This document shows positions 4,725 to 61,705 of a DNA stretch of 64,000 nucleotides, piece after piece. Below the pieces are notes generated by a model. The model saw only the letters and a list, made by a program, of their open reading frames with translations. It had not been told where the DNA came from and searched no databases. Where the stretch lies: NCBI GenBank assembly GCA_020160935.1, contig JAIUPL010000001.1, positions 124,001 to 188,000 of the forward strand. The letters run 5' to 3'. The DNA comes from Bacteroidota bacterium. Lineage in GTDB: Bacteria > Bacteroidota > Bacteroidia > Chitinophagales > Saprospiraceae. The position numbers and the translations under genes are program-made. Within the stretch, counting starts at the first letter, position 1, and every line of letters begins with the position of its first letter.

Positions 4725-4970
4725 GGCAAGAGGCAAGGGGCAAAGAGCAAGAGGCAAAAGGCAAGGAGCAAGAGGCAAAAGGCAAGGAGCAAGAGGCAAA
4801 AGGCAAGGAGCAAGAGGCAAAAGGCAAGGAGCAAGAGGCAAAAGTTAAATTGCTCGTTGCTTTTTGCTTCTTGCCCGTTGCTTCTTGCCCTTTACTTTTT
4901 GCCTCTTGCCTTTTGCTTCTTGCCCTTTGCTTTTTGCCCCTTGCCCTTGCCCTTGCCCCTTGCCCCTTCA
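4725..4970. repeat. Heptamer-array palindrome between guaB and ruvC
   Basis: The left arm starts at the base after the guaB stop and reads as consecutive 7-mers of the type GGCAAGA, GGCAAGG, AGCAAGA, GGCAAAA. These form a 21-bp higher-order unit repeated four to five times to about 4843. After a short AT-rich loop the right arm (about 4855-4970) carries the complementary words (TTTTGCC, TCTTGCC, CCTTGCC) and runs to the ruvC stop codon. The whole spacer between the convergent genes is this element. As RNA it would fold into a very long hairpin from either strand, so it could act as a bidirectional terminator. Confidence 0.85.
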
Positions 4971-5531
4971 CTTCCCCCTTCCCGGGTTATCTTTCAAAAA
5001 AGCGCTCCAGCCGCTATAGGACTTTTTGGCTCCCACGCCCGGGCCTGACGACTGATACCAATGGCACAGCGCAGTGGCCAGGGCATCGGTGGCATCAAAT
5101 TTCTGATCGGCAAATTTTGTACGCAGGATATTTTCCAGCATCCCGGCCACCTGTTCTTTTGAGGCATTGCCGTTGCCGGTAATGGCGCGTTTGATCTGCT
5201 TGGGCATGTATTCGGTGATGGCGAGTTTGTTCACCATACCGGCTGCAATGGCTACGCCCTGGGCGCGGCCGAGTTTGAGCATACTTTGTACGTTTTTCCC
5301 GAAAAAAGGCGCCTCGATGGCCATTTGCGTCGGCTTGTACTGAAAAATCAGGTCCTGCACCTGTTCAAAAATATGCTGGAGTTTTACCGTATGCTCGTCA
5401 CTGATATGGGCAAAGGTGACTACGCCGATTTCCAGTACTTTGATCTGCTTTTTATCGGCGTCTATCAGGGCAAAGCCGAGCACATTGGTGCCGGGGTCGA
5501 TGCCGAGAATGCGGGTGGGTGTGGATTCCAT
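4968..5531 (-). CDS. ruvC: Crossover junction endodeoxyribonuclease RuvC
   Basis: Holliday-junction resolvase that cuts four-way junctions with RuvAB during recombinational repair. The 187-aa protein has the RNase H-like fold with the acidic metal-binding residues D12 (ILGIDPGT), E73 (AIEAPFF) and D146/D149 (DATDALATALCH). Start is the ATG at 5531, five bases after the promoter-like TACCTTTG (complement of 5536-5543), implying a leaderless or nearly leaderless transcript. The last codons (GRGK, TGA) run straight into the G-rich repeat array of the guaB-ruvC spacer. It is monocistronic here, unlinked to ruvA/ruvB. Confidence 0.95.
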   Translation of the reverse strand: MESTPTRILGIDPGTNVLGFALIDADKKQIKVLEIGVVTFAHISDEHTVKLQHIFEQVQDLIFQYKPTQMAIEAPFFGKNVQSMLKLGRAQGVAIAAGMVNKLAITEYMPKQIKRAITGNGNASKEQVAGMLENILRTKFADQKFDATDALATALCHWYQSSGPGVGAKKSYSGWSAFLKDNPGRGK

Positions 5532-5535
5532 GGGG

Positions 5536-5543
5536 CAAAGGTA
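5536..5543 (-). promoter_or_regulatory. ruvC -7 box
   Basis: Minus-strand TACCTTTG matches TAnnTTTG exactly and is followed by CCCC and then the ruvC ATG. The same spacing is seen at purC. Confidence 0.55.
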
Positions 5544-5728
5544 GCAGGAAGCGGCAAGAACAGAGCAGGATAAAACATCGCTATAAAAAAGAGGCTATCC
5601 CTGCAATTCACACCTGAGATCAATCTTATTTCTTATCTCGAAAACGTTTTTGAAACCTCATAGGTTTATCGTTTGATAAAAATAAAATCTGACTTGTATT
5701 TCAGATACTTATGAGAAAGCGTCCTGTA

Positions 5729-5890
5729 AGAAACTGTTTTAAAACCCTTCACGAGGCGGAATGGCTTGAATTTTAAGGCTATATTTCATCCATTTTTAAA
5801 GGAGTAGGTACTACTATGCCTTCAATGAATTTCATCTATCCTTAAAATTCAAGCCATTCTGCCTGGCCAGGGGTTTTAAAACAGTTTCTA
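5729..5890. repeat. Long imperfect palindrome I
   Basis: Left arm 5729-5780 (AGAAACTGTTTTAAAACCC, then GAATGGCTTGAATTTTAAGG) is mirrored by the right arm at about 5840-5890 in the opposite orientation. Both carry the same two blocks with a diverged linker. The loop contains the small palindrome AGTAGGTACTACT. There is no ORF. It lies upstream of ruvC and next to palindrome II. Together the two fill most of the 536-bp gap between ruvC and the lectin-domain gene; the remaining 5544-5728 shows nothing recognisable. Confidence 0.75.
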
Positions 5891-58454: not shown

Positions 58455-58728
58455 TTTGTCAAATAGATAGAATAAACCGGTTTTAATTTCAATAGACCTC
58501 GAAATGAACGATAGGTTTATTTCGGATTCATGAAAATAACAAACTGATTTCGACACTTTTGCGTACAACCGTCAAATCGTCACCTCATTTGCTCGTTTAC
58601 AGTCAAAATGACTTCTAAAATGCTCCATAACTGCCACTTTTTCAGCCACAGGCGCCTGTTTTCATTTTGGAAATAAATTTGATAAAAAGGGATGTGCAGG
58701 GGTACATTTACCCGGCGTAGAACAAGGG

Positions 58729-58959
58729 GCAAGGTTCAAGGGGCAAGAGGCAAGAGGCAAATGGCAAGGGGCAAGAGGCAAACGGCAAGGGGCGCCTGCT
58801 CTATTTTTGAGTACATGCGGAAAGAGGTGTTTTCGTGTTTTCGTGTTTTGGAGGCTTCGCGCTTGGCATTGGAGAATTAGATTGTATCCTTAGGTCGTTC
58901 AAGCCTTACAACTAAATGCTAAGCGCGAAACCTCCAAAACACCAAAACACCAAAACACT
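58729..58959. repeat. Heptamer array plus AAAACACC palindrome upstream of clpB
   Basis: 58729-58792 holds GGCAAGA/GGCAAGG heptamers, the same word family as at 4725, without a mirror. Then 58828-58868 (GTGTTTTCGTGTTTTCG, GGAGGCTTCGCGCTTGGCA) pairs imperfectly with 58918-58959 (TGCTAAGCGCGAAACCTCC, then AAAACACC octamers). Degenerate octamers continue to 59014, 9 nt before the clpB ATG. The rest of the 569-bp spacer (58455-58728) shows no gene. Confidence 0.8.
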
Positions 58960-59023
58960 AAAACACCAAAACACCAAAACACTTCAAACACCCAAACACT
59001 TCAAAAACACATCCATCCACATA

Positions 59024-61678
59024 ATGACCTACGATAATTTCACCATAAAAGCCCAGGAAGCCATTTTGCAGGCCCAGCAAATCGCTGCGGGGTATGAGCA
59101 GCAAAGTGTCGACAGCGCCCACCTGCTCAAAGGCATTCTCAATGCCGACGACTCCGTGACCGATTTTCTCCTGAAAAAAACCGGCGTCAACATGGCGCGC
59201 TTCGAGGAAGAACTCGACAAACTCATCTGGGAAACACCCAAAGTACAGGGCTCCGACAAGCAATACCTCACCAATGAGGCCAATAAGGCCATTTCCACAG
59301 CCAAAGCCTTACTCAAGGACTTTGGCGACGAATACATTTCACTAGAACTGCTGCTGCTGGGTATTGCCAAAGGCAACGACAAAACCGCCCGCCTCCTGCG
59401 CGAAAGCGGCGCTACCGTCGATGCCCTCACCGCTGCCGTCAAGGAACTGCGCAAAGGCCGTAAAGTGACCGAGCAGACCACTGAACATGTGTACAATGCG
59501 CTGCAGAAATACGCCATCAACCTGACCGAGCAAGCCGAAAACGGCAAGCTCGACCCGGTGATCGGCCGCGACGAAGAAATCCGCCGCGTGCTGCACATCC
59601 TCAGCCGCCGGAAAAAGAACAATCCAGTGATCATCGGCGACCCCGGTGTGGGTAAAACCGCCATCGTGGAAGGCATCGCCTGGCGTATCGTCAAACACGA
59701 CGTGCCGGAAACCCTGGCGGGCAAAAAGATTTTCAGCCTCGACCTGTCGGCACTCATCGCCGGCGCCAAGTACAAAGGCGAGTTTGAAGAACGCCTCAAA
59801 GCCGTTATCAAGGAAGTGGTCGACTCCAACGAACAGGTCATCCTGTTCATCGACGAGATTCACACCCTCGTGGGCGCAGGTGGCGGGCAAGGTGCTATGG
59901 ACGCCGCCAACATCCTGAAACCGGCGCTGGCCCGCGGTGAACTTCGCACCATCGGGGCTACCACGCTCGATGAATACCAGAAGTATTTTGAGTCCGACAA
60001 AGCGCTGGAGCGCCGTTTCCAGGCTGTGTACGTCGACGAACCCAGCATGGAAGACACCATTTCCATCCTGCGCGGTATTCGTGAAAAATACGAGAACTAC
60101 CACAAGGTGCAGATTCTCGACGAGGCCGTGGTGGCCGCTGCCGAACTCTCGCACCGGTATATTTCCGAACGCAAACTGCCGGATAAAGCCATCGACCTCA
60201 TCGACGAGGCAGCCGCCAAACTGCGCCTCGAACTCGATTCTGTGCCCGAAGACGTGGACAAACTGGACCGCCAGATGCGCCAACTCGAAATCGAGCGCGA
60301 AGCCATCAAACGCGACAACGACACGCGCAAACTGGAAGCCCTGAACAAACAAATCCAGGATCTCCGCGAAAAACTCGACAGCATTCGCGCCAAGTGGACT
60401 TCCGAAAAAGAGATCGTGGAAGCGATTCAGAACTGTAAACAAAAACTGGAAGAATTCAAACTCCAGTACCAGCGCGCCGAACGCGAAGGCAATCTGGAAG
60501 TGGCATCGCGCATCAAATACCAGGATATTCCGGCGCAGGAAGCCATGCTGAAAGCCGCCGAGGAAAAACTGGCCGAACTGGCGCCCGAAACCCGCCTCAC
60601 TACCCAAACGGTGACTTCCAACGACATCGCCGAAGTGGTGGCACGCTGGACGGGTATTCCGCTAGCCAAAATGATGAAAGGGGAGAAAGAACGCCTCCTG
60701 CACCTCGAATCGGAAATGCATAAACGGGTGATCGGGCAGGATGAAGCCGTAGTGGCCGTATCCGATGCCATCCGCCGCAGCCGCGCGGGCCTGAGCGACC
60801 CCGACAAACCCATTGGCTCGTTCATCTTTTGCGGCCCGACGGGTGTTGGTAAAACGGAACTGGCCAAGGCGCTGGCCGATGTGCTGTTCGACGACGAAAA
60901 AGCCATTACCCGCATCGATATGTCGGAATACCAGGAAAAACACAGCGTGTCGCGCCTCGTGGGTGCACCTCCGGGTTATGTCGGCTACGACGAAGGCGGC
61001 CAGTTGACCGAAGCCGTACGCCGCCGCCCTTACTCGATTGTGCTGCTGGATGAAATTGAAAAAGCGCACCCGGATACCTTCAATATCCTGCTGCAGGTGC
61101 TCGACGACGGACGCCTGACCGACAACAAGGGCCGCACGGCGAATTTCAAGAATACGATCATCATCATGACCTCCAACCTGGCGAGCGACCGTATCATGGA
61201 AGCCTTCGAGGATTTCGATACGATGCCGGAAAAACGCCAGCACGAAATTTTTGAAACGGCTAAATCGGAAGTGATGGATGCGCTGAAAATGAACCTGCGC
61301 CCCGAGTTTCTCAATCGCATCGACGAAGTGGTGGTATTCCATCCGCTGCAAAAAAGCCAGGTGGCACAGATTCTCGACATCCTGCTCAAGGATGTACGCG
61401 AAATGCTCACCCGCCAGGAATTGCAACTGGACGTTACCAAAGCCGCCGCCCGCGTGCTGGTGGATGAAGGTTTCGACCCGCAATTCGGCGCCCGTCCGCT
61501 GAAACGCACCCTGCAACGCGAACTCGTGAACGAACTGGCCAAACACATGCTCGCCGGCGACTACCAAAAAGGCGACACCGTGCTGATCGACGCCGATGGC
61601 GGCGGGCTGACATTCGGCCGCAAATCGACAGTGGAAGGCAAGGAAGTGGTGACGAAGAAACTGGAGGAGGTTAGTTAG
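59024..61678 (+). CDS. clpB: ATP-dependent chaperone ClpB
   Basis: Hexameric disaggregase that works with DnaK to rescue aggregated proteins. The 884-aa protein has the Clp N-domain (1-145), NBD1 with [17 protein letters not shown] and [12 protein letters not shown], the long coiled-coil M-domain (about 405-535, rich in E/K/R heptads), and NBD2 with [33 protein letters not shown] and the C-terminal sensor-2 [18 protein letters not shown] 59024 ([18 protein letters not shown]) is the family start; the open frame upstream is the AAAACACC repeat. No CIRCE element was found. Confidence 0.97.
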
Positions 61679-61705
61679 TTATCGGTTGTCAGTTATTGGT
61701 TATCA
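61678..61705. repeat. Heptamer array at the clpB stop
   Basis: The last G of the clpB TAG is the first base of GTTATCG, GTTGTCA, GTTATTG, GTTATCA, four uninterrupted 7-mers. GGCGGGTAAG (61707-61716) could pair with CTTATCCGCC-TTTTT (61781-61795) to give a long-loop terminator. Confidence 0.7.

Follow-up and report, generated by a model that had tools for sequence, protein, structure and literature searches.

Arrays of heptanucleotides have been noted ever since the cyanobacterial work on short tandem repeats (STRR), and to our knowledge no account of their origin has been accepted. STRR arrays consist of direct repeats only, with neither an inverted partner nor a core. Here, we describe heptamer and related arrays in 64,000 nucleotides (nt) of a Saprospiraceae genome (G000:C43:124001-188000, the whole stretch being called the window), where they fill spacers between genes, often flush with a stop codon and often facing an inverted copy of themselves. 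The closest described systems are cited here for the passages that concern repeat words, placement and structure. In the P6b stem of the trnL(UAA) intron of Nostoc and Calothrix, heptamers fall into class I (TDNGATT) and class II (NNTGAGT) (PMC4476775). The TAACTGA heptamers of the BOGUAY genome comprise 169 direct sets and one indirect repeat (PMC4679880), whereas the arrays here are palindromic and lie at stops. Xanthomonas GGGAATC heptamers, when downstream of a gene on its coding strand, are mostly 0-50 bp from the stop codon or overlap it (PMC4692102), and the termini of GTAG repetitive extragenic palindromic (REP) sequences often supply a TAG stop (PMC3733652). With these two precedents known, the statement in an earlier reading of the window from its letters alone (the sequence-only reading) that no stop-anchored system had been described was too strong.

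We read the arrays as the stems of dispersed palindromic elements that sit at gene 3′ ends and whose arms are homogenised at the DNA level, with a probability of roughly 60%. The results suggest that these hairpins are a little-known kind of repetitive DNA instead of ordinary transcription stops. The genome of this uncultured bacterium (G000, a 5.84-Mb assembly of 51 contigs) was sampled through the window and 40 further stretches (850,353 bases in all), 20 at contig ends and 20 mid-contig (400 kb); the window and the contig-end stretches form a 450-kb sample that includes about 5 kb of N. Arrays were detected with Tandem Repeats Finder (TRF), at a score of at least 40 for counts and with a cut of 36 for pairing into elements. 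Genes came from a simple codon-usage caller, which missed some genes and calls stops more reliably than starts, and elements were assigned by word counts to 16 word labels of our own definition. In what follows, G labels denote compared genomes (41 of them from the genus) and L labels denote stretches fetched from G000 or its relatives.

The 450-kb sample holds 210 arrays, and the 400 kb of mid-contig DNA holds 144, whereas order-3 Markov simulations of these mid-contig stretches yielded 9; noncoding DNA makes up most of 112 of 124 mid-contig arrays. Lowering the score cut to 36 gives 374 arrays in 850 kb. Recurrent words include GTGAGAG, AGTCC, GAGTTAT, GTTGATG, GTTATYR, GGCAAR, GTGTTTT, TTCGGTG, CGCAGA and GTGAGTA, among others. 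The sequence-only reading had listed tandem arrays in the window, and both TRF and the sequence as read place them where it said, although the one near 61678, which begins at 61677, is weak (TRF score 46). It had also proposed that the arrays are neither limited to this contig nor copies of a single repeat family, and both points hold, with arrays across the 850-kb sample and the same anchoring shared by different words. Its common period of 7 survives as the commonest but is not fixed: among 318 arrays in 850 kb, counted over periods of 7-11, 14, 15, 17, 20 and 21, the period is 7 in 152, 8 in 64, 10 in 25 and 9 in 20, so that 7, 8 and 10 dominate. Its idea that each locus has its own word was mistaken, as 102 paired elements share the 16 labels and 14 labels have at least two elements. 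An assembly artefact was considered and rejected, the same architecture recurring in separately named records of metagenome-assembled genomes (MAGs; L033-L036, L039, L041), whose sequencing methods could not be checked; in G006, one spacer consists of N alone.

In the 450-kb sample, an inverted partner lies within 300 bp of 119 of the 177 noncoding arrays; a partner turned up in 11 of 885 trials when random regions were used and in 38 of 885 when the flanks of other arrays were. The 102 paired elements in 850 kb are 57-292 bp long, which by simple extrapolation corresponds to about 700 per genome. From the base of the stem inwards, an element consists of tandem 7-, 8- or 10-nt words, a family-specific core and a tip, and TTGGC appears in many of the listed cores (an impression, uncounted). 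Among the 84 elements with an inner length of 35-130 (18 of the 102 were dropped for their inner length), the nearest core carries the same word label in 59, whereas 1000 shuffles of the labels gave a mean of 9.5 and a maximum of 24. Word and core are linked, and the elements therefore form dispersed repeat families. Additionally, the copies of AGTCC largely share the order of their unit variants, and the core 12-mer GTAGAGTRYACC has 296 sites in G000 and 282 in G043, with 58, 53, 22 and 20 in G006, G016, G046 and G023, respectively, and 0-7 in the other 35 of the 41 genus genomes (0-2 for the reversed-pattern control). Numerous, lineage-specific copies dispersed in intergenic DNA are a trait shared with REPs and REPINs (hairpins built of REPs), and tandem heptanucleotides in intergenic DNA one shared with STRR; direct repeats only, however, describes just the unpaired arrays, given the 119 paired arrays and the linked cores. 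Two neighbouring GTGAGAG elements (L128:1579-1809 and L128:2326-2524) have a common inner loop in opposite orientation with few differences, a sequence pattern that suggests exchange or loop inversion.

These results bear on plain slippage of the STRR type, under which every spacer would have acquired its array by a local event of its own, without copies passing from one locus to another. Slippage has been proposed for heptamers (PMC4692102), and it would suit the variation in unit number, the wide occurrence of heptamer arrays in Bacteroidota (some of them single-arm) and the lack of nearly identical copies. Inverted partners, the common order of AGTCC unit variants and some 300 copies of one core 12-mer in each of G000 and G043, with few in most of the genus, nevertheless make it improbable; word-core linkage largely refutes it for the paired elements, and for single-arm arrays it is a possible account.

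The position of the elements is equally distinctive. Counted over both samples, with two sides that extended more than 25 nt into a gene left out, 196 element sides face a stop, and 130 of these are no more than 10 nt from it. When placement in these spacers was randomised 20,000 times, the mean was 78.8 and the highest count 93; the excess at stop codons that had been predicted is thus real. Anchoring is weaker in the mid-contig stretches, where 50 of 85 sides lie this close against a random mean of 31.4, than in the window and contig-end stretches, where 80 of 111 do against a mean of 47.3. In tandem spacers, 77 elements are closer to the stop and 22 to the start, with one tie (p 2.5e-8), and outer element bases often form the stop codon itself. 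In the window, anchoring as first described was confirmed for guaB, pyk, clpB, panD, and the dadA-like, aldehyde dehydrogenase (ALDH) and gldG-like genes: position 4725 is the base directly after the guaB TAG, the gldG-like gene ends TAG-GG-ATGAGTT, and the stops of clpB, panD, dadA-like and ALDH lie in or overlap arrays. Some arrays, however, stand in divergent spacers, such as 43418-43627. The CGCAGA family is an exception, since nearly all of its arms with a stop in reach lie 32-118 nt away; a second, GTAGAGTA-like motif is seen outside the arrays in CGCAGA elements (L110, L112, L116, L137, L144, L147).

Of the spacers that measure at least 100 bp, those between convergent genes hold arrays in 47 of 74 cases, those between tandem genes in 90 of 209 and those between divergent genes in 17 of 86, and the excess of convergent over divergent spacers would fit a function in the mRNA, which is possible. 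The 56 unpaired stop-adjacent arrays comprise 43 that are G-rich on the sense strand and 13 that are C-rich, two of the latter being AGTC-type words in the usual orientation and the rest looking antisense. Stops in all three frames are present on the sense strand of 70 of 144 stop-adjacent arrays and on the antisense strand of 27; for periods of 7-10, the observed share is 50% (n=133) versus 32% with position-shuffled units. The three-frame stops are a bias, but a three-frame stop cassette was rejected as a general purpose, since the GGCAAR, TTCGGTG, CGCAGA and GTGTTTT words contain no stop.

Stop anchoring and the convergent excess, along with very stable folds, also speak for a view in which the hairpins are RNA 3′-end devices (terminators, exonuclease barriers or RNase III sites) whose words drift while only structure matters. 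An RNase III gene lies at 32701-33483 of the window, as it does somewhere in most bacterial genomes, and 16 of 17 element-bearing G000 spacers are also filled in G043. In E. coli, moreover, translation can be lowered by a REP that lies under 16 nt away from the stop (PMC12306157). Selection on RNA pairing should leave more G-U than A-C mismatches on the transcribed strand; instead, the 50 tandem-spacer elements show 71 G-U against 64 A-C (p 0.61), whereas ten tRNA acceptor stems, a small positive control, gave 4 and 0. Counts for the 40 convergent-spacer elements are 58 G-U and 61 A-C, and for the nine divergent ones 7 and 12, with 3 of the 102 elements having no gene context. A U-tract (at least 5 T in 8 nt) follows the stem at 21 of 204 arm ends, against 80 of 920 counts in random noncoding 8-mers, and intrinsic terminators were rejected on that ground. 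Strand-symmetric mismatches and the missing U-tract leave the stems unexplained by either selection for RNA structure or ordinary termination, and the transcription ends, mRNA protection and RNase III processing that the sequence-only reading had offered are not supported as stem-maintaining roles. With the site 3′ of the gldG-like gene empty in many relatives as well, we regard the RNA-device view as unlikely. A scan of the window with Rfam 15 gave 0 matches above the gathering score. In an alignment of 18 AGTCC elements, 19 of 50 stem pairs have kept changes on both sides; because these pairs covary despite strand-symmetric mismatches, covarying pairs in a bacterial 3′ hairpin are not by themselves a sign of selection on RNA.

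The two arms of an element are more alike than orthologous arms are. At 11 of 12 same-family sites in G000 and G043, arm identity within the element is 0.79-1.00 versus 0.17-0.78 between orthologous left arms, taken from separate local alignments (0.46-0.78 at the 7 sites with arms of at least 23 nt in both genomes), whereas gene ends of the two genomes are 88.8% identical (135 anchors) and array-free spacers 87% (19). This pattern points to a DNA-level process that would homogenise the arms, most likely template switching, although strand symmetry would follow equally if whole elements were exchanged ectopically. Template switching has been described before (PMC8794818), and at quasipalindromes it is described as homogenising arms and inverting the spacer (PMC8604942).

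Related genomes show how variable the same gene ends are. The closest named relatives of the gldG-like protein are those of Saprospiraceae or Bacteroidota MAGs. Downstream of its gene, some genus members have a spacer of 2-27 nt and others arrays, with the words ATGAGTT, TAAGATT, GTGAATC, GTGAGAG, TTGGACT, TTGGACG or GGTGGAC. The protein ends in Ala-Lys or Ala-Arg with its stop in place in the window, in L033-L036, and in L037 and L044, which are empty; several other relatives have a different next gene, so that their spacers cannot be compared. At pyk, where the downstream gene differs between several of the genomes, the junction at the stop codon reads TAG-AGAGGTGAG in the window, TGA-GTCCTAAG in G043 and TAG-AGATGTGAG in G016, while G046 and G023 have no element and G006 has one about 70 nt further on.

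Of 46 orthologous spacers in G000 and G043, 27 have no element, 12 have the same family, 4 have different families and 3 are filled in one genome only. Spacers filled in G000 are filled in 16 of 17 cases in G043 (12 same family), 4 of 8 in G016 (2 same), 4 of 6 in G006 (0 same), 0 of 2 in G046 and 2 of 2 in the L035 species (0 same), whereas those empty in G000 are filled in 2 of 29, 3 of 14, 2 of 6, 2 of 6 and 1 of 4, respectively; these numbers are small, and the family labels come from word counts. Individual sites illustrate the differences. At L146:13608, the stop and a right-hand flank common to both genomes enclose a GGCAAR element in G000 and a GTGAGAG element in G043, and the guaB/ruvC spacer of G043 holds a different GGCAAR element. 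The dadA-like/panD spacer contains an AGTCC element in G043 with the spacer length unchanged (159), a CACATAG element in G006 and just 33 nt in G046. At the AGTCC site 49351..49490, L035 and G006 retain the GTAGAG core with other arm words, and the tip of the CGGATT palindrome houses a CACAAAG/GTAGAG palindrome (39779-39889) from which the outer palindrome of G043 is free. In L168, the spacer orthologous to window positions 52104-52332, G016 has an additional, nearly perfect palindrome that contains no arrays; the divergent spacer around it can be aligned, and the outer bases of the palindrome resemble the flanking DNA.

Such swaps lead us to consider, tentatively, a broader and possible view in which the class is defined by its architecture: stop-junction palindromes with heptamer stems would exchange families between sister species, words would recur in distant lineages, and a spacer would keep a hairpin while its sequence is rewritten. 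Sister genomes with empty, same-family and swapped states make gain, exchange and arm homogenisation measurable.

Under the dispersed-palindrome reading, each family would carry one word in tandem on the outer part of both arms, followed by a core and a tip. Elements are probably copied or exchanged between loci, as indicated indirectly by word-core linkage, lineage-specific amplification, presence and absence, family swaps, nesting and the inverted shared loop. The elements sit flush with stop codons, and in many cases the codon is made of their outer bases. A strand-symmetric DNA process, most likely template switching during replication, would keep the arms alike, and slippage would supply array length and unit variants. 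Their 3′-end location is most likely where a long palindrome does least harm, through tolerance or weak selection, and co-option as a barrier between convergent transcription units may have followed.

Heptamer arrays reach well beyond the genus. Three consecutive TGAGTNN units occur in 120 of 395 Bacteroidota genomes. The reversed pattern is the pattern itself and offers no control, hence the use of a composition-matched pattern, which occurs in 11 of 99 genomes (1 of 99 in its reversed form), against 27 of the same 99 for the TGAGT pattern. Heptamer arrays are therefore general, and the preference for the TGAGT word is no more than moderate. A further 20 stretches, taken from 11 genomes, were chosen for having arrays and so show existence and not frequency: five genomes (G281, G150, G410, G320, G108) have single-arm sense arrays from 8 nt inside to 4 nt after the stop, three (G438, G261, G347) have paired arrays and three (G213, G277, G080) have arrays that are not next to a stop.

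Several observations weigh against the dispersed-palindrome reading. Many arrays in distant Bacteroidota are single-arm, and the palindrome may be secondary there. Family labels are word counts. The separate local alignments may understate orthologous identity, and 4 of the 12 same-family sites gave arms that were too short in one or both genomes, with one giving none. A comparison of inner 30-nt segments, which include loop bases, speaks against fast homogenisation: just 24 of 79 elements had their closest match in their own other arm, and identity within elements (median 0.73) fell short of that of the best match elsewhere (median 0.77). Among 249 pairs of full-length copies, none reached 95% identity and 3 reached 90%, so the sample gives no hint of a recent burst, and no target-site duplication was recognised at the element boundaries inspected by eye. 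Furthermore, no mobilising enzyme was found: both Y1 transposase genes of G000, the only ones whose flanks were examined (L001 and L002, about 1.5 kb either side), adjoin other palindromes, and these flanks hold a single heptamer-type array, short and of the GTGAGAG type, which lies about 0.7 kb after one of the two genes (L001:2629-2660). The palindromes beside the Y1 genes are of the GGGCGTTGCCC and GTTGGCGAGGACGCCAAC types (L001:1207-1400 and the L002 flanks), and a 12-nt array borders the one in L001.

The last point also concerns a true REPIN system, in which a REP-associated tyrosine transposase (RAYT) of the Y1 (HUH) type would mobilise the hairpins with GTAG as the tag. RAYT genes are expected beside their own palindromes. 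Several cores contain GTAGAG, Y1_Tnp is found in 33 of the 41 genus genomes, and REP termini supply TAG stops in the published case noted above. Yet GTAG lies inside the stem and is paired in 18 of 18 aligned AGTCC elements, several word families are without it, and elements of 57-292 bp with a paired GTAG match neither the size nor the unpaired tag of REPs. Y1_Tnp shows no clear relation to arrays, with one locus seen per genome; G004, G005 and G024 have 5-6 Y1 matches and none or one array at that locus. With size, tag and the flanks of both G000 transposase genes all discordant, RAYT mobilisation was rejected and is very improbable. Miniature inverted-repeat transposable elements (MITEs) have terminal inverted repeats, a target-site duplication and a related autonomous element; here the palindromic structure is present and no duplication was recognised at the boundaries inspected by eye. 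With neither a mobilising enzyme nor signs of a recent burst found in G000, the elements are therefore filed as REPIN- or MITE-like in behaviour and not as members of either group.

Table 1. Arrays and palindromic elements located in the window (positions count from its first base).
Feature	Position	Strand	Remarks
GGCAAR element	4725..4983		takes up the convergent spacer of guaB and ruvC; arrays at 4725-4844 (left) and 4850-4983 (right)
TTCGGTG hairpin	13093..13170		just 3′ of comM-like gene (stop 13087-13089)
AGTCGAC/GTCGTCA single-arm array	26980..27019	-	at uvrB stop
GTGAGAG single-arm array	29142..29200	-	begins in pyk stop codon; pyk reads GAA-TAG-AGAGGTGAGAAG
TTCGGTG palindrome	34790..35128		unrelated palindrome 34878-35039 nested inside; outer limits by eye
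GTGAGAG element	36423..36601		dadA-like/panD convergent spacer; both stops in arms; core TTCGTAGAGTTGACCGC
CGGATT palindrome	39686..39979		3′ of class II tRNA synthetase gene (PF00152)
GTGAGAG element	41303..41555		right arm overlaps stop codon of ALDH gene (minus strand)
GTTGATGAG (10-mer) element	43418..43627		divergent spacer; 76-nt arms 99% complementary
CGGATT/GCGCAGA-type palindrome	46841..46976		convergent spacer; 66-nt arms, 89%; no TRF array call
AGTCC element, GTAGAGTACACC core	49351..49490		convergent spacer; called stops of both sides in arms
GAGTTAT element	54048..54155		between gldG-like stop and next start codon
GGCAAR single-arm array	58723..58793	+	TRF and sequence as read
GTGTTTT (8-mer) element, GGAGGCTTCGCGCTTGGCATT core	58827..58999		upstream of clpB
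Short GTTATYR-type array, weak	61677..61706	+	overlaps clpB stop codon

Three details of these loci are added here. A gene for a 23S rRNA intervening-sequence-type protein (PF05635, 13203-13574) directly follows the comM hairpin. The palindrome nested at 34878-35039 has 70-nt arms that are 93% complementary and no array, and one resembling it occurs in a G016 spacer upstream of a class II tRNA synthetase gene. A small gene called to 49372 runs several codons into the AGTCC array (49351-49372) before its stop, and the element may have altered or defined the C terminus of its product.

A search of the open PMC literature by title or abstract start found no description of stop-anchored, multi-family heptamer hairpins. 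What appears new relative to the precedents, as far as the cited parts of these texts go, is the scale, the many word-core families, the reuse of a stop junction by different families and the strand-symmetric covariation. Individual words do recur: the GTTATCA-type word at 61677-61706 is a rotation/complement of the published TAACTGA heptamer, and TATGAGT, CCTGAGT, CGTGAGT and TAAGATT, which occur in this genome or in related ones, match the two classes of word in Nostoc trnL. The Nostoc P6b stem is likewise built from heptamers, and one word class has repeatedly taken the place of the other (PMC4476775), but it is a single group I intron locus with two words, whereas the present elements occupy many intergenic loci, at stop codons, and comprise 16 word families, each word being linked to its core. 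The TAACTGA heptamers of Beggiatoaceae, Cyanobacteria and some Bacteroidetes have the word of the GTTATCA family and are also intergenic and patchy, although in the BOGUAY genome they are mostly just upstream of starts and use one word (PMC4679880). Xanthomonas GGGAATC and Nostoc GGGGAYT heptamers share the intergenic, stop-proximal position and the variation in length and sequence between close species, but consist of one G-rich, G-quadruplex-forming word per lineage, with no inverted partner described in the cited passages (PMC4692102). Quasipalindrome template switching offers the process proposed for the arm symmetry and the inverted loop (PMC8604942, PMC8794818), although it is a mutation process and not an element family, and one that we invoke here by inference. 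Finally, the REPs and REPINs of the GTAG and CGTC super-families are, like these elements, dispersed gene-end palindromes with TAG termini that insert within longer palindromes, but they are 20-40 bp long with stems of 5-13 bp and an unpaired tag (PMC3733652), whereas the elements described here span 57-292 bp and have stems made of tandem arrays.

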